Below are positions 8,271 to 63,310 of a stretch of 64,000 nucleotides of DNA, piece after piece. How positions within the stretch are numbered: the stretch's first letter is position 1; each line of letters opens with the position of its first letter. The notes beneath the pieces were generated by a model that searched no databases, was not told where the DNA came from, and saw only the letters and a list, made by a program, of their open reading frames with translations. This DNA comes from Kappaphycus alvarezii (lineage: Eukaryota; Rhodophyta; Florideophyceae; Gigartinales; Solieriaceae), in assembly GCA_002205965.3 (NCBI GenBank), contig NADL03000613.1:930001-994000 (forward strand), read 5' to 3'. A program made the position numbers and the translations under genes.

Positions 8271-10720
8271 GAATAAGAAGAAGAAGACTTTACCAATCAG
8301 GAAAGGGGGGCCCTAGCGGCCCTCAAAGGGGGAAAAATCTATCCGAGCCAGGAGCGGTTGAGTTGTCGTCGGTTGATCGCGACAGAAGTTCGTTGTTGTA
8401 TGAGCGAGCTGATAATCGTGAACAAGCGATCGCGCTCGAAGGGCAGGGCTACTGCCTTTCCGTAAAGGGATGTACTCAGCAATTCTGGACAGACCTTGTT
8501 CGGCACCGGGACCGGCAGACCCCTATATATCGAAAGCCATCGGGTGGAAGTCGATACGTAGTTCGGCGCAGAGGTGGCCATAGCGGAGAGATTTCGCGCG
8601 CTCAGATGCAGTAAGGGCAGCGAGGGGCGTGTGGATCCGCTGTTGGGCGTATGGAGCGGAGTGGGGTCTGATGACAGTGACGTCGTAGCTCTGCGGCACG
8701 GGGGAGAACTGGTCATCATAGATGTACATGTCGAGGCGGCGGCGGGAGTTGGAGGGTCGGGGCAAGTCTTGCGGGAAGATCCATTCCCGGACAGGGCGAA
8801 TCCCAATTGATAAGCGTGATACCTCGGAAATGAGGCGGTCGCGAACACAATTGTGGCGCCGAATGGAGCCGTCGGCGCAGGGACAGACAGAGGCGTGGTG
8901 TCCGTGGGAATCCAGGGTGGGGACAGTGCGGAAGTGGGCGGCGGCGCAATAGGTGCAGAGTTGTGTGCCAGAGAAGATGGGAACACCAAGACGGAGGCAA
9001 ACCATGGTTCGTCAGACTTCAGGAGCGGCCCGGGTACCGAGATGGCTCTGCGGGAGGTTGTGAAAGGGACGGGAGGCGTGGGAAGAAGCGGCGGAAGCTA
9101 GGCGGCGGAGTAGCCGGGAGCCTTCGGTGGAGGAGAGGTCGACGGAAGAGAGAAGTTTGGCGCGAAGCGCCTTTGAGATCTCAGCAGTAGCGGTTGTCTG
9201 GAAGTCAGACAGGCCGGGGGAAGAAGAGGCGCGGAGGCCAGCAAGGACGGCGGGGGGGAGAAACTGTCGGGGAGGCTGTATTTGGCCCGGATAGAGGCGA
9301 GAGACGTTGAGATCAAGGGCGAGACGTCGAAGCAATCACCGAGGAGGAGGCGAAGAAGTGGGTAGGAGGAGAGAACAGAGCCAGCGTAGCATGCCTCTGC
9401 CATGGTTTCGGTTAGGGGCAGTCCGAGCCCTCCGATACGGAGTGGAAGCTGGGCGATGAGCCAGGCACTGTCTGGGAGACGACGGTGCATGTCTTCGAAC
9501 ACCCTTCGCATTCCAGAGTCAAAGGTTTGGGCTCCGGAAAGAGTGAGATGCGGCGGGGTGCAGCGAGGAACATAGATCAGGCGGCAGGAACTGGCACAGT
9601 GTCTCAGTAGTTGGTAGCCCAGTTGAGGGTCATTCAATCCGGAGATGCGCGACCAAACCTCGGAAATGGCATGTACGCGGGAGGCAAGAAAAGACTGGCA
9701 GCTTTGAGGGGTGCCGATTGGGGATCCGAGGACTGTCACGGAATTGTGGGAAAGTATCGTGCAGGGTATGGCACACCGAAGGGACGTGGGGAGGGGATCC
9801 GGGCCAGGACGCCATAGCGTTGTTTTCGCCATGTTGATAGAGAACCCGAGTGGCTTTCCACGATCTGAGATGAAGCGGAGAACCTCAGAAGCGAGTTTGA
9901 CAGGGGCGATGACGGTACCGTCGTCGGCAAACCAAGCGTTTAGGCGTATGGCGGGAAAGCGTGATGAGAGCTGGGTGACCAATGGATGGATGCCAGGGGC
10001 GAACAGGATGCTTCCGAGCGGATCTCCCTGGTGGGTGCCTGTGCGACTGTGCAGGATGTGTGAACCGAACATGAGGGTGGAATCACCTCCATACAAGTAG
10101 TGCACAAACCGGGCGAGGTCGGGGATATGGTTGGCCGTCTCGAGCAGAATGTTGTGACGCTCGATGTTGTTGAACGCGTTTGACGCGTCAATTTGAAGGA
10201 GAGCGAAGGTGGCGCTGTCAAGGCGGGTGGTGCGAACCCGTGTCGCATGAATGATGGCTTCTGCTCCGTGGCGGACTCCTACGGCGAGCTGATGAGGAAG
10301 GAAATGAGAGACGACGGTGGGTTTTGTCGACAGGCACCGAACGACGAGGCGGCAGATGAAGCGTCGGAGAACCGTACTCATGGCGATGGGGCGGAGACTG
10401 TCGCCATGGGCCTTTGGGATGCCGAGTAGGGTAGCCCCGGCGAAGAGATGACGGAGCTCAGTTGGGAGTCGGCCGTCCACGGCAGAGTTCACAAAGATTG
10501 TGAGCTGAGACAGGGCGGAGCGATCTGCGGTATCACCGCCTGGTGCATGGGAGAGGGATTTGAAGACGGATGGGCGGAGGCCGTCAGGGCCCGGAGAGCT
10601 GTGGTGTGGTAGGAAGGCGAGCTGACGGCGAACCTCGGCCTCCATAAAGACAAAGGCGGGGGGCAGCAAGTGGCGCGGAGTTGGGGTAACGGGACACTTG
10701 GATAGGGATGCAGGGAAGCA
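8271..10720 (-). mobile_element. Non-LTR retrotransposon (LINE) number 1
   Basis: This is a LINE on the minus strand, about 2.4 kb, probably lacking its 5' part. Its 3' end lies next to the copia LTR and consists of a short TTC-rich run (CTTCTTCTTCTTATT read on the minus strand), as expected for a LINE tail made of a simple repeat. The body codes for a reverse transcriptase followed by a zinc-binding motif and a nuclease-like domain (described in the next entry). The 5' border near 10.7 kb is a guess: coding similarity fades there, and no target-site duplication was found. The coding region is G/C-rich on both strands and clearly different from the AT-rich ground to the right of 11 kb. Confidence 0.8.
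8523..10669 (-). pseudogene. LINE-1 reverse transcriptase with C-terminal zinc and nuclease-like domain
   Basis: Read from 10669 leftwards. The first 523 codons hold the RT fingers motif PGPDG (residues 26-30), the catalytic palm block QIDASNAFNNI (Asp about 161), THQGDPLG, and the active-site box FADD (247-250). The frame then moves around 9.3 kb, and downstream coding continues in another frame (9335 to 9012). There it meets an in-frame TGA at about 9009-9011 and resumes as a 158-codon tail. The tail holds CTYC followed by His and Cys residues (a likely zinc site) and then RRRLDMYIYDD followed by YDVTVI. That arrangement resembles the restriction-like endonuclease end of R2/CRE-type LINEs. 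So there is one frame change and one stop, and it is a decayed copy. The class assignment from the tail is inference. Confidence 0.8.
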
Positions 10721-34502: not shown

Positions 34503-35246
34503 GTGTCGGGGAAATCCAGGATTTCCCTGACATGGAAAATATCGCGAAATCATCAGCTGATGGCAAAAATCCAGTTGGATGTGGCATCATTTAACATCTA
34601 TCTTCTCCTTGCAAGTTCATCCATCTTCAAACGGTATCATCACCTCACCGTTATGACTTCTCCACCCATGCAGACATCCCGTGGATTGCAACAAGCCAAT
34701 CCAAAAAACCACGCTACTCAACACCCTCCGCAGCCAAACTCTTCCCCGATCGCTGATCCGCCATTAACTCAAAATCCACATCTAGCTGTAGGCACACAAC
34801 CAAGTGCCGTCGACCGTGCTTCTCGTCTCGAACCGGTTGCTAGTGATAGAGCACATGATATCCCAAGTGATCAAGATGACATTATTACCGAAAACAGAGT
34901 CCGGCATATCGTTCCAACCTCCTTGGCACAAGCAAAGGAAGCACTGCGAGAAGCTTATCTCGACAACAATACCTACAAGGCCATCTTGAAAGCCTTAAAT
35001 ATATCAGGTGCATGTAATGCTAAAGTTGGTACAAAGAGGAATATAGTTGCTACAAAGATGGTGCAACGTTTATTTTCAGTTGAGATGGCCCTTTGCGTCG
35101 TGAAAAGTCGTAAAGATCCTTTGTTGCCGATACCCACGGCAACCGAACATTTGATCAGTATTCCACCAAAAGTCGTCAAGACTAACAAAAGCACCCAAGG
35201 TATAGAGAATACTATTTGGCAAAGGGGGTGGCCTTTCAGTTTTTGA
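34503..35246 (+). CDS. Unidentified frame inside the nested Harbinger relic
   Basis: The 247-codon frame begins with 55 residues that partly translate the terminal-repeat side. It then has a Pro/Gln/Asn-rich segment and, from about residue 130, a better-folded part (RVRHIVPTSLAQAKEALREA, then YKAILKALNISGACNAKVGT). PIF/Harbinger elements carry an accessory gene with a Myb-like DNA-binding domain, and this would be its place, but I do not see a clear Trp-spaced Myb repeat. A likely real start is the ATG at about 34651 (MTSPPMQTS). Function is unknown, and the frame seems truncated at its 3' end relative to the coding-like sequence that follows. Confidence 0.4.
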   Translation: MSGKSRISLTWKISRNHQLMAKIQLDVASFNIYLLLASSSIFKRYHHLTVMTSPPMQTSRGLQQANPKNHATQHPPQPNSSPIADPPLTQNPHLAVGTQPSAVDRASRLEPVASDRAHDIPSDQDDIITENRVRHIVPTSLAQAKEALREAYLDNNTYKAILKALNISGACNAKVGTKRNIVATKMVQRLFSVEMALCVVKSRKDPLLPIPTATEHLISIPPKVVKTNKSTQGIENTIWQRGWPFSF

Positions 35247-41886: not shown

Positions 41887-42081
41887 ATGAGCCGCCGCGA
41901 CAGGATGATCGCGACTCTGGATGCCGAATGTGAAGCCTATGGATGTAACCAGCACGTGAGTGACACGGCTCCTGTAATTTCTATAGCGCCTCTTGAGTTA
42001 CGTCCTCTGAAGAATGCAGACGCTGGTATCAGCAAGGAGAACCGAGGCAGGGAGGAATTGCTCGGAATTAATGCCCCCTAG
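41887..42081 (+). CDS. Possible small protein, 64 residues
   Basis: It opens with ATG in a good context (CACACCATGAG) and runs 64 codons: MSRRDRMIATLDAECEAYGC and onward. Composition is mixed and charged, with no transmembrane segment or signal peptide and no family I know. It lies tail-to-tail with COQ2, and the two stop codons share the four bases CTAG (42078-42081). A GTGAGT at about 41956 could be a splice donor, in which case the reading continues elsewhere. It might equally be chance in 3' non-coding sequence of UBA5. Confidence 0.35.
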   Translation: MSRRDRMIATLDAECEAYGCNQHVSDTAPVISIAPLELRPLKNADAGISKENRGREELLGINAP

Positions 42082-43268
42082 AACAATCGTCCTGCGACTA
42101 AAGCCGCCCAGGTAATTGCACCTGTTACCTGATTACTGACGAATGCCCGTTGACATTGCTCCGGATCGGAAAGGTCAGTTGTATAAATCTGATTTCCTAG
42201 GTGAATAGTGGAGGCGGTGATTCCCATAAAGTATGGTAATGACAAGTCTGCTGCCAGGCCCGCACCTGTCAAAAACGCGAGTTTTGCAGCGGTAAGCCCT
42301 ACAAGTATGGGCTTGGTGTCCTGTCCGAGCGCGAGGGCAGTCGTTCCTACCCCAAGAATCTTGTCGTCTTCCTTGTCTTGGTGGGCATATATTGTATCAT
42401 ACACCATCGTCCAGCACCATCCCGCACCGTACAAGAGTACCGCCGGCAGACCGATCGTGCCATTGGCGGCAGTGTAACCCATCAATGCTCCCCAATTAAA
42501 GGTTAGGCCAAGGAATGCTTGCGGGTAGGCCGTTACCCTCTTGGCAAAAGGGTAGTAAAGAACAGGGAGCACAGAGAGGGTACCGGCAAGGAAAGTGGCA
42601 GTGTTTAGTTGCGTTAGCACCCAAAGAGCGCCGGACAGCTGAGCGCCCAGGAATATAAAGGCTGATGTGGAGGATATCTCCCCGGCTGCAATGGGGCGTG
42701 ACATTGTTCGCTTCACCCTCTTGTCAATGTCAGCATCAAAGATATCATTAATGGTGCATCCTGCACCACGCATGAGTACGGCTCCGCCATAGAAGAGAGT
42801 TGTCAAGGTGAGAAAATCAGCTGTCGTGGATGACGCTGCGGTGATCCCCCAGGCGCCGGGCAGGAAGAGTAAGTTGTGTCCGATCGGTTTGTCAAGTCGC
42901 ATCAACCTGCCGTATGAGGTATCCGCGACCCGATCGTAAATGGAACTAAATCTGCTCCGGGCGATATTCAGCTGATTGATTACGTTGCTGACCTTGGAAG
43001 TAAACTCACTGATCGGCGTTGGTTTTCGAGCTTCGTCCTGCTTTGATTTCAAGGAGCTTCCATTCGCGGAAAATGATACGCCACGGCGAGCAAAGTCTGA
43101 AAAGTTGTCGTAGGTCCCTCCTCGTCGCCATGTGAGGACTCTGGGAACCACCTCGGTCTGAACACGGATGCGAAGAGATGCTGATTTCGAAGCACAGTTT
43201 GCGGCGAGCATTCCCATCAGGGTGCAACCACGTGACAATGACATCCTGCTGGATTCAGCAACTTTCAA
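42078..43268 (-). CDS. COQ2: 4-hydroxybenzoate polyprenyltransferase, COQ2
   Basis: COQ2 attaches the polyprenyl tail to 4-hydroxybenzoate in ubiquinone synthesis, in the mitochondrial inner membrane. The single-exon frame has 396 residues. The first 110 or so are Ser/Arg-rich and poorly conserved, as expected for a mitochondrial targeting region; MSLSRG at residue 9 is an alternative start. Conserved UbiA signatures follow: YGRLMRLDKPIG at about 119-130, the first Asp-rich motif NDIFDADIDKRVKRT at about 174-188 followed by RPIAAG, and the second, YDTIYAHQDKEDD, at about 290-302. Hydrophobic stretches in between fit the eight or nine membrane helices of the family. All catalytic acids are present, so it looks functional. 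It converges on the small plus-strand frame, sharing the CTAG stop. Confidence 0.95.
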   Translation of the reverse strand: MKVAESSRMSLSRGCTLMGMLAANCASKSASLRIRVQTEVVPRVLTWRRGGTYDNFSDFARRGVSFSANGSSLKSKQDEARKPTPISEFTSKVSNVINQLNIARSRFSSIYDRVADTSYGRLMRLDKPIGHNLLFLPGAWGITAASSTTADFLTLTTLFYGGAVLMRGAGCTINDIFDADIDKRVKRTMSRPIAAGEISSTSAFIFLGAQLSGALWVLTQLNTATFLAGTLSVLPVLYYPFAKRVTAYPQAFLGLTFNWGALMGYTAANGTIGLPAVLLYGAGWCWTMVYDTIYAHQDKEDDKILGVGTTALALGQDTKPILVGLTAAKLAFLTGAGLAADLSLPYFMGITASTIHLGNQIYTTDLSDPEQCQRAFVSNQVTGAITWAALVAGRLF

Positions 43269-43762: not shown

Positions 43763-44302
43763 TCAATACTGACGGCTACCGCTAGGCAACATCCTCGCGA
43801 TGTTGTCCGCTCCTTGGTAAAAGAGCCTGCCCAGAGGCTCCTTCACAGAAGTCATTCTGACGAAAAGTCTAACCGGAGCCAACATGGCATGGGCAAAGCG
43901 GGGATGTAAGGCTGTTGAATAACCGGAAACACGAACGCCGTCAACCATCATGTCCCCATGCATAGTGTGTGGAGCGTACAGTCCCGACATTTTAACCAAT
44001 TCAGTCTTCACCACTACAGAATTTCCATCGGTAGTCTCCAAAACGTCTCCCACTCGAACGGCTTTGGCGGACGTAAGTCTCCCATTGGCGTAGAGGTAAT
44101 GGCTTGGTGTAAGTGTGACCTGATGACCAGACCTTGTCGTAATACGTGCGAACGGCCGAATCACGTCTGCTTGTTTATGTGTGAAAAGGAAGACAGGGCT
44201 CGTTATCCCATCTCCTACGTGCACATTCAGACCTGCCTCAAGGTCGCGCATATGAATGGGCGCCCCATTCGCAAGCTGGAGTCGGGCCGTGGACGGAAAG
44301 CA
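43763..44302 (-). CDS. Hog/Hint autoprocessing domain
   Basis: This part of the preceding gene has an unbroken frame of about 179 residues. It starts at CFPSTAR, as Hedgehog autoprocessing domains start at Cys-Phe. It keeps the conserved TxxH region (TLTPSHYLYA), a VGDVL turn, and the late block YAPHTMHGDMMVDG; in animal Hedgehog the corresponding block reads YAPLTAHGT..V..V..SCY. Here the usual SCY is SGY, so that Cys is absent. Downstream of it a further 55 residues (RFAHAMLAPVRLFVRMTSV and on) could correspond to the sterol-recognition or adduct-recognition tail seen in Hog proteins; that is inference. Confidence 0.85.
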   Translation of the reverse strand, partial: CFPSTARLQLANGAPIHMRDLEAGLNVHVGDGITSPVFLFTHKQADVIRPFARITTRSGHQVTLTPSHYLYANGRLTSAKAVRVGDVLETTDGNSVVVKTELVKMSGLYAPHTMHGDMMVDGVRVSGYSTALHPRFAHAMLAPVRLFVRMTSVKEPLGRLFYQGADNIARMLPSGSRQY

Positions 44303-47049
44303 GACAGGGTCATCATCGTCATCGTCATCGTCATCCCCATCGCTTGCAGCCGTAGCACTTGGGATGTCTCTGCAGTGGGCATCATAGTACTCTCCGGCGA
44401 TACCTCTGAAGTAGGCATGCTAGTTGCCTCAGGGTTACCTCTGCAGTAGGCGCAGGGGATGGATCTGTAACGCCCATTTCCAGTAAGTCCATGACTGCGG
44501 CCCTTCCGGCATCAAGGGTAAAGGGTACTAGTACGCCTTCCATCACACTCACAAATCCTGTTCCAGTGACGAAACTTGCAACCAGTGGGGTGTCCTCTGT
44601 TTCGTCGGCATCCTGCACAGCTCCCTCCACGATAGTTATATCGCTCGCGAATCCTTCTCTTGAAAACAAAGTTTGCTGGGGTCCCGCACCCACAAGCTCG
44701 TCAAAGGAGCTCGTCGTGTTCAGAACATGATATGTGACAATTTCTTCGAGAGACGGAACTCCCTCAAGAGAGGCCCAAACCATGCTAAGTTGACTCGTAA
44801 ACATTTCTGTCCCGGTATCGCTTTCGAGAACTGATTCCAGAGGTCCGTCTACCGCAAAAACGGAGGGTATGACTTCCTCAGGAACAAGTGCTTCAACGAG
44901 CGAAACGAATGCTCTGTCATTGGGTGCAAAGACATGCAACATGGGCGAATTCGACAAGACATTCTGAAGAAGTTCGCTATCTAGAACCAAACTTGTCAAA
45001 ACTCTCAAATCCCTGCGGGAGGTTACGAAAGAAACTACTGAACGCAAAGGCCTGAATACGTCATCGCTCATCTCAGTATCCATTCCCTGGCGGGCAACCG
45101 GGATTGTAATGTCACCAGCTTCAACGGCAGCAGTGAGGTTGATCGGAAGGAGAACATTGTCAATGAAGGAAACTCGTCCGTTGGTATTTGATATTTGGCG
45201 TCCGAGTCTCCTTGAATTGGTTGCTCTATCTTCGTCGAATATCACTCTCGGATACCTCCGCGTGCCTAGGCTCTGTCCAAACACGGTTGGAAGGGACCCC
45301 ATTTCCATGATTTCCTGTTCCGGCAGGTCTCCAGCGACTATGTGATAGCTCAGCACATCTTGAATAGTTGGAATCCCCAGGTCAGTGGAACTGAGGGTAT
45401 CCCATATTTCTGCGAGTGCATCTACGATAGCTCTTGTCCCAAGGTTCTCCGGGAGTCCGGGCGAAGGCGGCGGACCAATGCACGAAACGCATCATTCGTT
45501 GGGGCAAGCACCAGGAACGGGTCTGGAGACTCGGCGGAATCCAGGAGCGGGGTGTCCACCAGGAGGGCGACAAGAACAGAGGCATCTTGCCATGCTAACA
45601 GCTCTTGAACCAAGGTGTATGTAGAGTCGACTGACTGGTCGGGAATGTTGGGTTGCAAGGCCAAAGGCGAGAACGGTGCGGGGCTAACACGTGGAGGAAC
45701 TGGTACACCGCCTGGAGTCACGAGTTCCTCCAAGGCCTGTCGCACCTCTCCTAGAGTGAGAGGCAAGAGAACGGTATCAATGACGCTTACGAATCCGTTT
45801 CGGGTAACGAAGCTAGCTATCAACTGGCTGTCCGCCGTGCTGTCCGCATCCTGAACGGTCCCGTTGGATACGGTAATCTCGTCTTCGAAAACTTGACTCA
45901 TGAAGAGAGTCTGTTGCGGCCCTGCCCCATCCAATTGTGTAAATGAGCTTGAGGTATTGACGACATGATACGCAATAATCTCTGGCAGAGAGGGGACATT
46001 TTGGAGACCGCCCCATACGGTAGAGAGCCTGCTTGCAAAGGCGGACAGCTCGGTACGGTTTCCAAGTGCAGCTAGACCACCGACCGGCAATATATTTGCG
46101 ACAATTTCCTGGTCGCCGAGCGCTGATACAAAGTTTATGAATGCAGTGTCGGTGGGTGCAAAAACGTGCAACGGAGTGGAGGTCATGAGGACATCCACTA
46201 GACCTGGGTTGATGATTACCAACTGGGTCAAGACGATCAAATCATTTCGAGACGAGACAAAATCGACCAACGAGCGGAACGGGCTGAACAAAGGATCACC
46301 ATCGTCGACGGCACCTTGGAGCGACACTGAAGGGTTGACTGAAGCTTGACTCAATTCTTGCTGCACATTGAATGGGATGAGGACATTGTCAATGAAGGAA
46401 ACACGGCCGTTGGAGTTTGCGATTTGGCGGCCCAAACGAGAGGAGTTGACGTTTGGGTCCAAGTCGAGGATTTCCAGCGGATAGCCGTCCGTAACGATAC
46501 TGGGGCCGAAAAGAGAGGCGAGAGGGCTTCCGGCGACGATGTCTATCTCGGATAGGTCCCATCGACAATGTGATAGGCGAGAACATTTGCAATTGAGGGT
46601 ATATCTGGAACGGCACTCGTGAGTGTTAGCCAAATCGAATCCAAAGCGGTTACAATTTCTGAAGTTTCAGCATCATCCTGGACATCCGGAGAAATACTCT
46701 GGACGATGGAAAGAAAGGCGCGGTCGGTTGGGGCAAAGACAAGCAAAGGATCGTCAGACAAGGCGGCGGCTACGAGTGCATCTTCTCTGGCAACTAGGGC
46801 GAATAGTACGGAGAGATCGGCCCAGGCAGAGATCTCCTGGACGAGGTTGTATGTAGAAGGAATTGAATCGGCGGGTGTAGGCGGCTGGATGGAATCATCG
46901 GAGAAGACACCCTCCGCTGCTGATGTTTGGCGTAGGGTGGAATCGGATAGAGCGGAGGCGCTTACCACTGCCGGGTAAAGACAGGGTAGTGCGGTGGCGA
47001 GTATCGAGACAAGCAGGACGGCATTTTTCGGAGACATGCTGAGGCACAC
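43763..47049 (-). CDS. Secreted protein with four Fas1 modules and a C-terminal Hog (Hint) domain
   Basis: Read from 47037 (MSPKNAVLLVSILATA, a clear signal peptide) to the stop at 43763, about 1,090 residues. Fas1 modules lie at roughly 46.9-46.38, 46.29-45.75, 45.62-45.14 and 45.07-44.50 kb; modules 1 and 3 resemble each other, as do 2 and 4, so the set arose by duplicating a pair. Each shows VFAPT/N.AF and a G.VS-[FV]-[IM]-[DE]-x-V-L-[ILV]-P end. Next come a Thr/Ser/Pro linker, eight Asp residues, and the Hog domain from 44302: VCFPSTARLQLANG (Cys nucleophile), TPSHYLYANGRL (active-site His) and GLYAPHTMHGDMMVDG. In Hedgehog this domain cleaves itself. Four apparent single-base losses (near 46559, 45450, 44433 and 44357) break the frame, all in the same sense. 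It is either a decaying gene or one with sequence errors. Confidence 0.85.
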
Positions 47050-49729: not shown

Positions 49730-52669
49730 AAACACCCTTCCAACAAACAGCTGGCGTTATTCTGGACGAGTCTCGCCGCGTGAAGAGCGAACAATGTTTG
49801 CGCGCATCAGCAATCGGAATGCCTGCCCGTGCGGCAATGCCAGTCGCAACCCGGTTGGCGAAGTCCCGAGCGGTCGGGTGTCAGCCCCCCGACATGGAGA
49901 GTGCAATGGCAATGAAGCGATGCCCAGGACGCTTGGAACGTATCAACTCGGCAAAGCGAGCGTCGTTGCCAAGGCGAGCATGGTTAAGGGGCTTGAGAGG
50001 GCATCGCGCCAGGGAAGGGAGGCGGGCGGGGGTCAAGGTATGGATGACGGTTACGTCATAATAGTCCGTGCCCCCGTTCTCTCCAAGCGTCTTGATATCC
50101 GGGCGAACTGCATGGCCGGGTTGTGAGGGCTTGAGGACAGGGTGTCGGGCGGCTTTGGAGAGGTCTGCGACAAACAACCGTGTTTGCGAGTCGTGCCGCC
50201 ACCCACGGGTGGATCCATAGCCACAGCACAGCGCGTGGTCACCGTACTGATCCATGAGTGTCGTACATCCCCCTTGTGGCATTTTGAAGCGGGAGGAAAC
50301 AGTGGTACCCTGCAATAGAACTGCAACCACTTCTTGTAATTGCGGTCCGAATGTAGGTGCCCAGACCTGGAGCCGGTTGACATGAAAGCCAGTCCTTGCA
50401 ACCATCCACTAACGAGGCTCGGAATGCTACGGTCCTGTCATCCCCTTTGGCATGGCGTCAAAGGCCTTTTCCTCAACTGGGGAACGAGTTACCCTTGCCC
50501 ACACCGCTGCCTTGAGTCGAGAGCCGTGAACTGGACAACCTTCTCGGGTGCCACTTGTGTCTTCCACTCATCATGTGCCCGAACTGCGGATGTGTAAGAT
50601 TGGAGAGCAGTGTTCGGTAGCACAGGGAGAAGGGTAGAGCACAGGGCACGCGTGAGGGATACGGAGGAAAGGAAGGCAGCCGCCGCAGTGAGCTTAGCGG
50701 AGCGGAGCCCGATGCCAAATGTTGGCTTGTGGGGCCCAAAGGGCGCAATGGGAAGTTGTAATTCCCGAAAAGTGTCGGCGCCCAGAACCCCGCCCACAAA
50801 CCCCCGCAGCGTGTCTTAAACAGCGGTGTCGAATTCAGTTGCTCCCTAAGAGTGGAATGAGGGGGAACTACACGTAAGAGGTAGTTGATCCGACATACAC
50901 CAAAGCAGGTCCGCAGTAGATGGAGAGCCACATGAGTGTCCTTCAGGGTTAACAGGGATTTGGGGAGGGGCTGTAACGAAGCGACGTGCTTTGAGAACTC
51001 GCGCTCCATGAATAGGTCCGACCTGATGGGTGTGCGGAGCACTGTTGTCCCGGCGTCATAGTTCTGGCGAAGCTCATATGGGAGGGACTGCTGAACAGGT
51101 GGGGGGGGAGGTTGGCCACCGGACGGCACACTTATCCATGCGAAGGTGTAGACCCAAACTGCGCACCTCCGCGGACGAGAGAAACTTTAGTGCCGTTCGA
51201 ATGGCTTCGTGGGTGCCCACTATGTACCCATCGTCCAAGTACCACAACTGAAGGAGTACAGAAGGCCTGCCTGTGGTGTCGCCCACATTTTCCAGGCGGG
51301 TTTTCAGTTCCCGCATCAGTATTTGCTGCACAAGGGAGAACAAAAAAGGACCCAGAGGATCCCCTTGCTGCACGCCTACCACGCTCCGGAGCATATCATC
51401 CCCACACCACAGATGACCCGGGTTTACCGCGTACGTGTAATTGACCCAAGGTAAGAGCTCCGGGAACCCCTGCTCGACCTCCTTCAAAAACGCACTGGGG
51501 CTGACCCGGTTGAAGGCGTTTTGAAGGTCAACGGTTAACAGTGCGTACTCTGCCGATTCGCCATGCTCCTCATAAAGTCGCCGTACAGCGTGGACAACTG
51601 CCCCAGATCCTCCTGACGTTGCTACTCCCAGCTGTAGTGGCTGAAAGTATTCGGAAGCCTTTTCGGAAATGCGAGTCAGCAATCATCTGCCCACCAAGCG
51701 ACGTAAGGTCTCGCCCACGGCGATCGGTCTGATTCCTCCTTCTGGTTTGAGAAGTGCCGTAAGCGGCGCACCTGCGATCCATGCCGATATAGCCGCAGGG
51801 GGCTTCCCGTTGGCTAGCAAGTTGACCACACTAGTCAGAGCAGCTAGAAAGCTTCGTCCACGATTGACCACTGGTGGGACCTGTAAATGCTCAACGAGGT
51901 GGTTTGGGCGGAGTCCGGATCCCCCTGCGGCGCTACCCCTTGGAAAGCTTCGAACGCAACGGAGAACAAGTTCTGGAGTGAAGTGGGGGCAAGCCGGCAA
52001 CGAGTGAGGGGAAGCGGGTTGGTACGACTCCGTAGTCGGGGAGCGCTGTGGGTGTTTCTCCCGAAGAATGGAAACCACCTCGGCGGAGGGGCATGCGATC
52101 CCCGAAGATCCCAGCGCACGCGCTGCCTTGCCGTGAGCGCCCTCCTTTGCAAGCCTCAGGGCGCGCCTTTTGTTGATCCCCACTTGTTCCTCTTCAGTTG
52201 CCTTGTGCAACGGGCGGGACGTTGCCAAGGCGTTTGCCCTTCGCATCAAAGTTTCGTACTGTCCATCACGCCGCAGTTGAATGCGTTCAGCAAAAATACG
52301 GGAATTTGATGCTGTGCCCGGAACGAGGGTTGAGAGCGTGGAGGGCTTGGGATTGGCGAGGATCGCGGACGGGAATAGGATGAACTTGGTGAATGCCTCC
52401 GCAGCTTGAGGGGAACCATGTGATGCGTCCGCGCATTCTCCAAGAAAAAGAGCTAGCTCCCTTGAAATCCGCTGGCGCTCACGTCGCGGTATGTGTTGCG
52501 CTAGCGGGACGTGAGTAGTGCAGATTGCGTGCAAGGGGGGAAGCGGCTGTCTCCTCGGGCCATTCAGTGAGGGAGCGGTGGTGGGCAAAGGCGGAGGAGG
52601 AGGGGCATCCGGGATGGGCTGTGGTTCGGGTGGATTGGTTGAGGCCGAAGCTGCCTTAGGAGGTGTCAC
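49730..52669 (-). pseudogene. LINE-2 reverse transcriptase with nuclease-like tail, broken
   Basis: Read from 52669 (GTG/ATG-less start; the frame may begin further upstream). The first 328 codons hold a Pro-rich leader, a Lys/Arg-rich stretch and the RT start (PEGGIRPIAVGETLRRLVGR). After a frame change the core follows at 51682-51074: VDLQNAFNRV (catalytic Asp), VQQGDPLGPF and WYLDDGY. Another frame change leads to 50797-50489, and another to the tail from 50405: DQYGDHALCCGYG (likely zinc site), RHDSQTRLFV, then RPDIKTLGEN and YYDVTVIH, the same restriction-like endonuclease pattern as in LINE 1. An in-frame TGA at about 49878 is followed by HPTARDFANRVATGIAAR. So at least three frame changes and one stop. 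Dead copy. Confidence 0.75.
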
Positions 52670-58813: not shown

Positions 58814-59548
58814 TTATTTTGAATGCACTACCAGAATAGCGTTCGTCATTCCGATGAAGCAATATAATGATGTATAGTTGTCAGTTGCATGGGGGAGTAT
58901 ATTAAACCAGCCATTTTCTGAATTAATATGAAACAATGCTCTTTTAAGATATACTGGTAATTCAAGAGGGCAAATTATCATCATTGAGCTTAAACAGGTA
59001 CTCATCACCGTTAGTACTCCCCAACGCATCAAAGGTGAATCCACCACTTCGCAGGAATACACATTACACTTCTCACCTCTGATTTCCCTAGAAAGACTGT
59101 AATGATACTGCAAGAAGTTCAACCGCGTCAATGGATAGTCTGTGCAAGTGGTAACCAATTCTTCTACACTGAAAACGGGATGAATGAGGCCTGAATGAAA
59201 GAAAATAATGCTGTGGGGAGGGACAGCCACCAAAGATGAGGGTAGTACTGACGCTGCCAATCCTGCATGATCGGAATGACGGAGGTTCATGGTTGCATGG
59301 GAGCCCCTCCATATCCGAAGAATAAATGGCTCACTCCCAGAATACATTATGAAGACGAACAGATAGTCATGAGCGACACCGTAGAACTTCCTAACTGCGT
59401 TTCCGAACCATACCCGCGGCCTGATTGTATTGAAATCCAAATGCCGATCCTGGGACAGCGCATTGAGGGATAACAGAAGTAGAGAACTCCCGAGTGACGG
59501 CACTACCAGGGGAGCATCACTGCCTTGTAAAAACAGCACCTCAAACAA
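58814..59548 (-). CDS. Frame resembling a 2-oxoglutarate/Fe(II) dioxygenase fold
   Basis: The 244-codon minus-strand frame is uninterrupted. It contains RHLDFNTIR (possible HxD iron ligands), ILRIWRGSHATM (like the GSH turn of phytanoyl-CoA-type dioxygenases), VAVPPHSIIFFHSGLIHPVF (like the P.GsiifFH..liH strand carrying the distal His) and then TRLNFLQYHYSL (Arg at the usual distance for binding 2-oxoglutarate). The order fits the double-stranded beta-helix of that superfamily. The assignment rests on these motifs alone, is unconfirmed, and the substrate is unknown. It lies downstream of transposase-like frames in the same direction and may be their C-terminal or companion gene. The true start is unclear because TTG/ATG choice and splicing cannot be settled. 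Confidence 0.4.
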   Translation of the reverse strand: MFEVLFLQGSDAPLVVPSLGSSLLLLSLNALSQDRHLDFNTIRPRVWFGNAVRKFYGVAHDYLFVFIMYSGSEPFILRIWRGSHATMNLRHSDHAGLAASVLPSSLVAVPPHSIIFFHSGLIHPVFSVEELVTTCTDYPLTRLNFLQYHYSLSREIRGEKCNVYSCEVVDSPLMRWGVLTVMSTCLSSMMIICPLELPVYLKRALFHINSENGWFNILPHATDNYTSLYCFIGMTNAILVVHSK

Positions 59549-60090: not shown

Positions 60091-60734
60091 AACTTCCTGA
60101 TGAACTTTTACGGGGTGTCAATCTTGTATTCCGAGCCAATGGCTTCTTTTCCCTCCCTCTCAGCTATCTACCTCTCCTCGCGATGATGGTTTTCAAAACT
60201 ATTGGGAGGGACTAGAGGCCGGGATATGGGAGTAGGGATATCCAAAACGCCTTCGCACAGGCGTACCACCGTCAGTACCGAAATCATCATCACGGTTTTT
60301 TTCTTCTATTCAATCCGTATCGGAATGAACGCTGGACTGTCGGGGTGCTTCATTGTTTCCAGTCTTGCGAATCCAATATTGCATACGTCTCGCAGACGAC
60401 ATGCCAGAGCCCCGATGGCCATTCTGGCGTCCACGAGTACCACTCGGTAGCGTTCTCGGTTGGCCTTTGGAAATATGGCTATCATCAGAACCAATGATGA
60501 CGACAGGAAAGAAATTGCAGAAAGGCAGTTCAGATACAGTAAGGGAAGGGAATAACTGGAAATTTTTGAGGACAGGGGAAAGGTTTGACGGGAAAGTGGC
60601 TGGTGAGAGGAGTACGTATTCACGGCGAGTGGGTGAAGAGGATGATGATAGAGAAATCCTGTGAAGGGGAAAGGGGCGAGAGGAGAGGAACATGTTGACG
60701 AGAAAGGGGGTGAGAATAGGGGAATACCGACAGG

Positions 60735-60815
60735 AGGGGGGAGGCGGTGAGGGAGGAGGTGGTGAGGGAGGAGGTGTTGAGGGGGGTGGTGGTGAGAGGT
60801 GGGGGGAGGTGGGCT
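60735..60815. repeat. G-rich minisatellite (GGTGAGGGAGGA type)
   Basis: The plus strand repeats GGTGAGGGAGGAGG with small changes about four times. The minus-strand reading is C-rich and gives a false Pro-rich stretch (SPPPPSTPPPSPPPPSP). It lies inside what is probably an intron of the minus-strand element. Confidence 0.75.
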
Positions 60816-60829
60816 GAACAGGAACAAGG

Positions 60830-63310
60830 GTTTCTACCACAATTGAAGAGGCTGATATAAGCAACAAAGTACTTAGAACCATTGACCATAACTGACGAAG
60901 AGGATAATTCAGGTTGTCTAGTACAGGGAAGAACGATCGCAAAAAATTCGTCCAAGTAGGTTTCCAATCCAATGATATGTAGATACAATATAGTATTTGG
61001 AATCTGTCTTGTCTGGAAGGTTTTCTGGATAACTTATGGACATAGAGGATCCTCTTCACATCCAGAAACATACGAAAGAAATTTAACGACATCCCCATTT
61101 CTGATATGGTCTTGTGGCGTTCTACGTCTTCCATAGTGACTTCTGTGTTCCACGGATGAGACAGGCCCCCATCCCCTCGGATGACCCATTGCATTTAGGA
61201 TCATTCTTCCTATTTGTAGCATATCATCAAAAAACACTCTAAACTTCGATCTGCTCTGCTCATCATTATGCTGCGACGATTGCAATACCCGAAAGGGGTA
61301 CATATCGATATGTTGTTGTAACTTCCCAGACACCCAGAATGGACTCAAATTAGAGTTGATAGAAGCCTCATTAAGAACATGCCGATCTTCAATATCCAAA
61401 ACTGACTTGACAAGGCCGTGCGGGCCTATATTATGCTGGAGAAATTCAGGATCTTCTGACGTTAACGAAATTGTAGCACCATCTTTACCGTGAGCAGTAG
61501 TGTCAGAATCCTGTTTACGGTTCCATTCGATGTATCTGCTGTGAATTTACTGTTTCCCTCGCAGTAATATGACCAAAGTTAGTTCCGATTTATTTCGTAT
61601 AAGTGTGTCACTACTTTCGTAGTCGGCAATATCTTGTCTTGTACGGCCCTGCTAATCATTCATCACTGCACCATCAACTGCGTCAAGGTGGGGTCGCTTG
61701 TGATTTGACCATGTGGCTGATGGTTTCAATGCCTGGTGAAACTTTTCAAACATCAGTTCTGAAATGTTGCCCGAGTGACCAACCATCGGTAGAACTACAA
61801 ACATCATCTCCAGTATTCGGTGTAAATTAGGGTGATCAAGGTTTGACGAAAGATGCTTTGAAGTTCGAATCTTTTCTTTACCTAACTCTAACAACTTCTT
61901 TCGAGCCAAGCCGCGCAACGTAACAATTCTCTGCGAAAGAGCTAATACTTAATCTTGGACAAAAATCATGGAATCCACAAACTGGATATAATCTCTGACT
62001 TCTTTCTGTACTTTCACAAGAAACAGCATGACATCACACCAATTCCATTCACTGACTTTCTCAAAACCATGGACATCTCCATCCGGCCGATCCCATACGA
62101 GGGCCATTAATCCACCAAACTTCGTCACCACTGTCATCGCCTTCCTGATCATCGTCTTGAGCCCATCAAATAATTCTCTAGCATCAAACTCGCGATGATT
62201 GAGTTCAGGTTCACCGTCAGAACGAGGGTCGTTACAACCATTTTCCCTCTGAACCATTCTAAAGCTTTCCCCCAAAGCATACAGTGATATAAACAGCAAT
62301 GAAAAAGTATCACTTAATTTCATAGACAATAGTTCGGAACCTTACATCACCCTATTCTGTTGCTCAATTTTACATTTATACAATGCCGATAGAACATACC
62401 GTTCATAATAATAACTGTGTCTCTTTGACGAGAGGATACGCTAAACGGCTTGCATGCAATCTTTTGCAAGGATTGCTAGCTAATGGTCCACCCCAATGAA
62501 CATGGATTGATATTCATCCAAAGAATTCGGCACAATGGGTCGGTTGTTCTCATCAACAGGAACTTTCCCAGAGAAACTCTAAATATCCTGTCAAAATCGC
62601 AGAAACCCAGAAATATCATCCTGAAAACTACATGACATCCCCATAAGTTTTAATATAGAACTAAAACGCCGTACATCCGTAATGTCGTGTGACGAATAGA
62701 ATCTTTTCTCGAGAAGTTCAGTCCGCCATGAAGAGATGAATCCGAATATCTACTCGTGCACTGAACTACCACTTCGGTGACCTCAACTTCTGCGCTAGCT
62801 CTCCTGCAATAATTACAGATGTGGAAACAAGCGTTTGAATTGTGACCCATAAAATCAATCGCACTGTTTAGAGCTGGGGTATCACCAACACATCCAACTA
62901 AACCCAGGAACACAATAACCACCTTACCGTCAGCAGCAATCTCCTTGAAACCTTCCACCATGCCAGTTGTAACATAAGCTCTGATTCTGTCAAACAAATC
63001 CTGGAATGAAACTCCAGGAGGTGTAAGCGAAATTACCCTGCTGACAGAACAACTATTTCTTCTGTGAACTGGTAGGTTGAGCGGAACTATATATGTACCA
63101 GTTACCGAAGGCTTCTTCCCCTCCGTCATAGTGAAATCACCCCAAAATAATAGGAACCTATAAATGAAATAAGATTCCCCTGTCCGTAGTTTTCCAACAC
63201 TTGAAATTTCCCACCCTCGCCTATCAATCTTGTCTCCCCCTTTGGTATCACCATCCTCACACTCTCCACGGATTCCAACAATTATAAACGATGTGTAGTG
63301 TACCGACCAC
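60830..63310 (-). pseudogene. CACTA/KDZ/Plavaka-like transposase, several pieces
   Basis: Minus strand, right to left. From about 63.31 kb an open stretch reads WSVHYTSFIIVGIRGECEDG, later FLLFWGDFTMTEGKKPSVTG and TYIVPLNLPVHRR (first acidic region), then FLGLVGCVGDTPALNSAIDF and CFHICNYCRRA (second Asp with a Cys pair), ending at 62650. Further left come VDENNRPIVPNSLDEYQ with stops, the frame at 62329-61949, an in-frame TAA, then LDHPNLHRILEMMFVVLPM and SELMFEKFHQALK (61918-61652), and further pieces at 61399-61034 and 61194-60830. The GDTPA plus Cys-pair layout is shared by the large-DDE transposases of CACTA, Plavaka and KDZ elements; I cannot choose among them. In-frame stops show decay, although some gaps may be introns. 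Confidence 0.5.

Follow-up and report, generated by a model that had tools for sequence, protein, structure and literature searches.

Covalent cholesterol on a protein has been described as singular to Hedgehog (PMC7242414). In the Hedgehog precursor, cleavage ahead of the first cysteine (Cys1) of the C-terminal Hog domain proceeds via a thioester, and the N-terminal part is passed to cholesterol with Asp303 as the general base (PMC9163320). The fly D303H variant, for which the structure 6TYY is available, is still folded and active, and its range of sterol substrates is wider (PMC9163320). Cholesterolysis by human SHH depends critically on the HPR residues (H374, P379, and R381), which belong to the first helix of the sterol region and in simulations are located at the membrane (PMC7906309).

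Hogs outside Hedgehog proteins are found in protists and red algae, where they follow diverse N-terminal parts, several of them with signal peptides and unnamed domains (Buerglin 2008, PMC2362128). The red algae of that survey include Chondrus, Griffithsia, Porphyra, and Gracilaria, which fits the view of an earlier note on this DNA that its source is a probable red alga, and the motif-J Cys of their Hogs is replaced by S, T, or D. Fasciclin has 0 occurrences in the accessible part of the survey. In Cyanidiales, a repeat module (Kelch) is joined through a T/P-rich linker, also described as T/P/A-rich, to Hint/Hog in a duplicated family (PMC9812998, PMC13353863), and the accessible text of PMC13353863 mentions Fas1 proteins in one place and Hog proteins in another. 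We found no report of a Fas1-Hog fusion, a weak negative given that most subscription journals were outside the reach of our literature search; red-algal Hogs and Kelch-Hog fusions are known, and the combination of Fas1 with Hog appears to be new.

The 64,000-nucleotide stretch of Kappaphycus alvarezii DNA analysed here (the window) carries such a combination. With a probability of about 0.5, we consider it to represent a family of secreted Fas1-Hog precursors that would shed Hog and gain a C-terminal sterol. The likely start codon of the window gene is the ATG at 47037 on the minus strand, and its parts are the following:

46939-47037, minus strand: signal-peptide-like N-terminus (MSPKNAVLLVSILATALPCL...SASA), from inspection of the sequence
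46364-46857, minus strand: Fas1 module 1 (type A), containing a frame step near 46558; PF02469, 38.1 bits read through
45752-46294, minus strand: Fas1 module 2 (type B), without a break; PF02469, 34.9 bits
45135-45625, minus strand: Fas1 module 3 (type A), containing a frame step near 45450; PF02469, 47.9 bits read through
44514-45062, minus strand: Fas1 module 4 (type B), without a break; PF02469, 21.2 bits alone, 52.5% identity to module 2
44342-44513, minus strand: P/S/T-rich linker with frame steps near 44436 and 44362, from the translation
44306-44341, minus strand: acidic run (DG, nine Asp, P) ending 2 residues ahead of the cleavage Cys, from the translation
43895-44302, minus strand: Hint part of the Hog domain; PF01079, 86.3 bits, and by profile a match with Hedgehog chains of fly and human in the PDB
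44302-44297, minus strand: Cys1-Phe2 of Hog, from alignment and translation
44179-44177, minus strand: His of Hog at the place of Hedgehog Asp46, from alignment
44110-44099, minus strand: TPSH of Hog, from alignment and translation
43766-43894, minus strand: sterol-recognition-like tail with an H-P-R motif (AHAMLAPVR); the fly Hedgehog profile alignment extends into the tail, and the motif is that of PMC7906309
43765-43763, minus strand: stop codon, from the translation

The earlier note had placed this locus at 43763-47049, which is right, the strand being minus, and the domain series it had described is indeed present: a start that resembles a signal peptide by inspection, then the four Fas1 modules, the run of acidic residues, and Hog. 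On the raw frame pieces, Pfam returned Fasciclin at E values of 1.3e-3 (19.4 bits, below the cut-off of 22), 3.8e-14, and 3.6e-12. With modules 1 and 3 scored by reading through their frame steps, modules 1 to 3 passed the PF02469 cut-off and module 4 alone fell just below it, so the HMM search bears out three of the four modules outright. The alternating A-B-A-B pattern proposed by the earlier note is borne out by the identities, 53% between modules 1 and 3 and 52.5% between modules 2 and 4, against 31 and 30% for module 1 with module 2 or 4. A profile of the Fas1 modules matches CupS, periostin, and TGFBI chains. In the N-terminal pieces of the window gene, the Hedge domain PF01085 is absent by Pfam, Fasciclin being found instead; genome-wide the Hedge domain gave no match either, but the controls were equally silent, so this says little.

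In its order of parts, the window gene recalls the plant fasciclin-like arabinogalactan proteins, which likewise combine a signal peptide, Fas1, a P/S/T stretch, and a C-terminal anchoring signal. The plant proteins bear a GPI signal at the C-terminus, whereas the window gene ends in Hog, and its last residues (...MLPSGSRQY) form no hydrophobic GPI-type tail by inspection. The Cyanidiales fusions share the sequence of repeat module, T/P-rich linker, and Hint/Hog, and the duplication of the family, but differ in having Kelch rather than Fas1 and in genomes far smaller than that of the window alga. With Hedgehog (fly 1AT0, D303H 6TYY, human SHH) the window protein shares Cys1-Phe2, T-x-x-H, HPR, and a secreted N-terminal part; unlike Hedgehog, it carries Fas1 where the Hedge signal would stand, has the general-base Asp replaced by His and the motif-J Cys by Gly, and continues only a short way past HPR. 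Acidic runs also stand ahead of some other Hogs in the genome.

The Cys-Phe start and the TPSH motif that the earlier note had read in the Hog are there, and Hint was found in the raw frame pieces at E 2.9e-24, with 86.3 bits against a cut-off of 29.7. The earlier note had named an HMM search without a Hog as one possible refutation, and this outcome goes against it. That this C-terminal domain is instead an intein or a bacterial-type Hint, splicing or processing a protein, we regard as next to negligible in probability: the weak Pfam matches to Intein_splicing, PT-HINT, and Vint (11.7, 13.4, and 15.3 bits) that might speak for it lie far below their cut-offs (35.8, 27.7, and 27) while the Hedgehog Hint stands 57 bits above its own, and the protein ends with the domain, which leaves nothing to splice, and possesses the HPR tail. 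A prokaryotic or viral source was also considered and set aside; the search with the window Hog, which reaches close relatives only and says little, gave 23 and 5 pattern matches and 0 relatives.

The window gene is not a single open reading frame. It contains the four one-base frame steps listed above, and its longest stop-to-stop frame is 414 codons. A collinear copy, 97% identical, lies on contig C660, and the collinearity runs into the neighbouring ThiF-UbiA side, for 3.4 kb at 98% and a further 1.0 kb at 88%. In the window, that side carries two single-frame genes, ordinary neighbours of the window gene:

42078-43268, minus strand: UbiA prenyltransferase, single frame; Pfam, 183.5 bits
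40644-41774, plus strand: ThiF family protein, single frame; Pfam, 183.6 bits

Because the collinearity extends this far, the C660 copy is, to judge by its sequence, either the other allele on a contig of its own or a segmental duplicate. The stretches that span the frame steps are of equal length in the two copies in all four cases, and the steps are therefore not random errors of one contig; the C660 copy has additional breaks of its own. Thus the window locus could be a pseudogene derived from a formerly functional Fas1-Hog gene whose frame is now lost in each of the two assembled copies, and we give this somewhat less than an even chance. The four steps, their recurrence at equal lengths in the copy, and the further C660 breaks favor it, but apart from the steps the gene has no in-frame stop across ~1,090 codons, and all four steps go in one direction. 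Frame-changing gaps are, moreover, common in this assembly: in four near-identical pairs of Hog loci with one intact member each, the broken partners contain nine of them (7 missing and 2 extra bases), although error and true mutation are not distinguished by this count.

The differences between modules by codon position speak in the same direction. For modules 2 and 4, they number 63, 50, and 124 at positions 1, 2, and 3, and for three parts of modules 1 and 3, which cover both sides of the breaks, 26, 13, and 43; 20, 13, and 34; and 13, 16, and 27. The excess at third positions shows long (past) selection on the protein, and in the module pair 1/3 the bias is present on either side of the breaks, against a pseudogene. 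NG86 synonymous distances were computable in one of the four module comparisons (0.395 vs 1.338), the others being saturated. Since the four steps recur at equal lengths in C660, the window copy may yield no full-length protein. Within the Fas1-Hog family, it may have died or been assembled wrongly. A pseudogene at this locus would be compatible with the proposed family mechanism; such a copy would do nothing.

Two explanations of the frame steps were rejected. A 20-base intron at the first step, examined by hand, is too short and would remove residues that are retained in module 3. A general collapse of C/G runs of four is at odds with the 17 such runs that survive in the window gene and with six intact Hog ORFs, which together contain 104 runs of at least four. 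By eye, each of the window's four steps coincides with a C or G run of length three, and all seven frame steps seen at two loci (four in window 43763-47037, three in L026 6100-6760) share one direction.

The fusion itself was sought elsewhere in the genome. At locus L039 (701 bases of contig C711), 233 codons free of stops run in a single frame through Fas1 (46.5 bits, E 5.3e-12) and a linker that is first P/S/T-rich, similar to that of the window gene, and then acidic. The Hint match starts at 95656, in the register of the Fas1-linker frame, after three unread codons. The Hog alignment of the whole-protein search (95117-95812) includes two TGA, and the Hint pieces 95492-95656 and 95195-95374 are free of TGA; damage to the Hog of C711 is thus possible as well. 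At L026 (contig C811), three frame pieces ahead of Hog, none of which matched Fas1 in Pfam when taken singly, give Fas1 over the whole profile when joined (36.9 bits, E 4.8e-9). The Hog of L026 groups with the window Hog (99/97), on the only starred inner branch among 13 in a tree of 16 rows, and the L026 gene is frame-broken too. On C732, one match covers the end of module 4 together with Hog (query 766-1020), which is at most suggestive of another such locus. Fas1 matches in the genome number 21, of which only those on C609 and C711 adjoin Hint, in a list from which loci with a broken frame, L026 and C660 among them, are missing.

Judging by the near-continuous frame at C711 and the same domain order at L026, the Fas1-Hog fusion is independent of the window copy. 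The fusion in a single gene, as the earlier note had it, is supported by the C711 Fas1/linker frame in register with Hog. The window copy is frame-broken, and for none of the window gene, C711, and L026 is there an uninterrupted reading that leads from the start codon to the stop. In the window, Fas1 and Hog sit in different frames, as two neighbouring genes with an only apparent fusion would. We consider two separate genes very improbable, for at C711 the 233-codon frame is in register with Hint with three codons unseen between, L026 keeps the order of Fas1 followed by Hog, and the linker-Hog junction of the window gene shows neither a signal peptide nor a spacer by inspection.

The window Hog is one among about 80 Hint places in the genome, which, like the frame breaks, the earlier note had missed. 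In 336,021,096 bases on 884 contigs we obtained 96 Hint matches, merged by hand into 82 places; these include duplicate contigs, and the distinct genes are therefore fewer. The same genome contains 17 phycobilisome-linker matches, which supports the description of the source as a probable red alga. From the best-scoring 20 loci, a choice that favors intact ones, five near-duplicates were dropped, and the remaining 15 were aligned with the window Hog (n=16). Cys1, Phe2, and H72 were found in 16/16, as were residue T/S69 (T in 11, S in 5) and the motif G-L/I-Y/F-x-P-x-T. Of the HPR motif, P and R are present in all 16 and H in 13. The place of the Hedgehog general base Asp46 (fly D303), assigned by profile alignment with PDB chains that have His (6TYY) and Asp (1AT0) in this column, is occupied by His in every one of the 16 sequences. 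The original D303H work is reportedly a JACS paper of 2019. At the motif-J Cys place, Thr occurs in 11, Cys in four, and Gly in one, the window Hog. A profile of these 16 own-genome Hogs matches fly Hedgehog (1.8e-29), 6TYY, 1AT0, and human SHH. The tails after HPR are short, with the first sterol-region helix alone recognisable, and single-sequence structure prediction of the Hog gave a model too poor to be of use (pLDDT 34).

Having His in place of the general-base Asp would not exclude function, as the fly D303H variant is active (PMC9163320). A sterol-type modification of the Fas1-Hog proteins is plausible because Cys1, T/S-x-x-H, and HPR are kept along with a general-base variant that works; the Gly of the window Hog at the motif-J Cys place and the short tails after HPR count against it. 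In the proposed mechanism, Cys1 of Hog would attack the preceding peptide bond of the precursor in an N-S acyl shift aided by T/S-x-x-H. A sterol, most likely cholesterol, would then take over the Fas1 part, its 3-OH having been activated by the His that stands in for Asp46. Hog would be shed, and the Fas1 ectodomain would keep a sterol ester at its C-terminus, which would hold it on the wall-facing side of the plasma membrane. The Hog tail would thereby be, in effect, a substitute for the GPI signal of the plant fasciclin-like proteins.

Self-cleavage of Hog by hydrolysis or another small nucleophile, without a lipid, would instead set the Fas1 part free as a soluble protein of the wall or the mucilage. 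Thioester formation requires Cys1 and the T-x-x-H block and not the tail, which counts for hydrolysis, as do the short tails after HPR in the algal Hogs. The nematode Hog tails, moreover, are called the adduct recognition region for an adduct that is unproven (PMC2362128). Against it, P and R of HPR lie outside Hint, are critical in human SHH cholesterolysis (PMC7906309), and are kept throughout the aligned Hogs; the general-base place is always His and never lost. We regard hydrolysis as rather unlikely. Sterol transfer is inferred to be more likely than plain hydrolysis because D303H is active, the HPR spacing is shared (the algal AH..LAPvR has the same spacing as the human motif), and cholesterol is described as the major sterol of extant red algae (PMC10692144).

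The joining of Fas1 modules to a Hog suggests that cholesterol may serve red algae to attach wall proteins to their membranes, and wall-membrane adhesion would be an obvious role for an anchored Fas1 product. More broadly, and only tentatively, since we think it less likely than not, Hog might serve in red macroalgae as a general self-removing sterol-anchor tag: dozens of secreted proteins whose N-terminal parts are unrelated, Fas1 proteins for wall adhesion included, would be esterified with cholesterol at the C-terminus by a natural, His-based form of the Hedgehog chemistry. The lineage is one with cholesterol as its major sterol (PMC10692144), the genome has about 80 Hint places, and in all 16 Hogs examined the residues needed for cleavage are conserved, as are P and R of HPR, with a permitted general base. 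If true, protein cholesteroylation would not be confined to animals; it would also be a means of anchoring of a plant-like kind, alongside GPI. The Fas1-Hog protein makes sterol attachment by non-animal Hogs directly testable.

The N-terminal parts of eight other Hogs gave Pfam matches in 0/8 at E up to 1, and five of them carry a domain of ~155 residues with recurring Cys. In an iterative profile search (E up to 0.001), this domain preceded Hog in 12 of the 20 loci (L011-L017, L019, L022-L024, and L029, with two copies in L016), and the same search did not find it in the window gene or L026. It appears to be the equivalent in red algae of the Wart/Ground N-domains of nematodes. Near-identical Hog pairs lie on different contigs (L011/L012, L013/L015, L018/L020, L023/L024, L028/L030, and C609/C660) and are perhaps uncollapsed haplotypes; tandem Hog pairs occur at G000:C513:943483-946278, C117:163513-165354, and C811:731769-735114. 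NPC1-like proteins also belong to the Patched family, and the four Patched-family matches in the genome are therefore no evidence for a Hedgehog pathway.

Six of the ten long window frames scanned had no Pfam match at E up to 0.01:

8339-8989, minus strand: frame without a Pfam match at E up to 0.01
34503-35246, plus strand: frame without a Pfam match at E up to 0.01
50473-51129, minus strand: frame without a Pfam match at E up to 0.01
51683-52669, minus strand: frame without a Pfam match at E up to 0.01
58814-59548, minus strand: frame without a Pfam match at E up to 0.01
60310-61194, minus strand: frame without a Pfam match at E up to 0.01

The window also contains two reverse transcriptase pieces, which are retroelement remains:

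9098-10669, minus strand: reverse transcriptase piece; PF00078, 48.1 bits
51074-51682, minus strand: reverse transcriptase piece; PF00078, 43.6 bits
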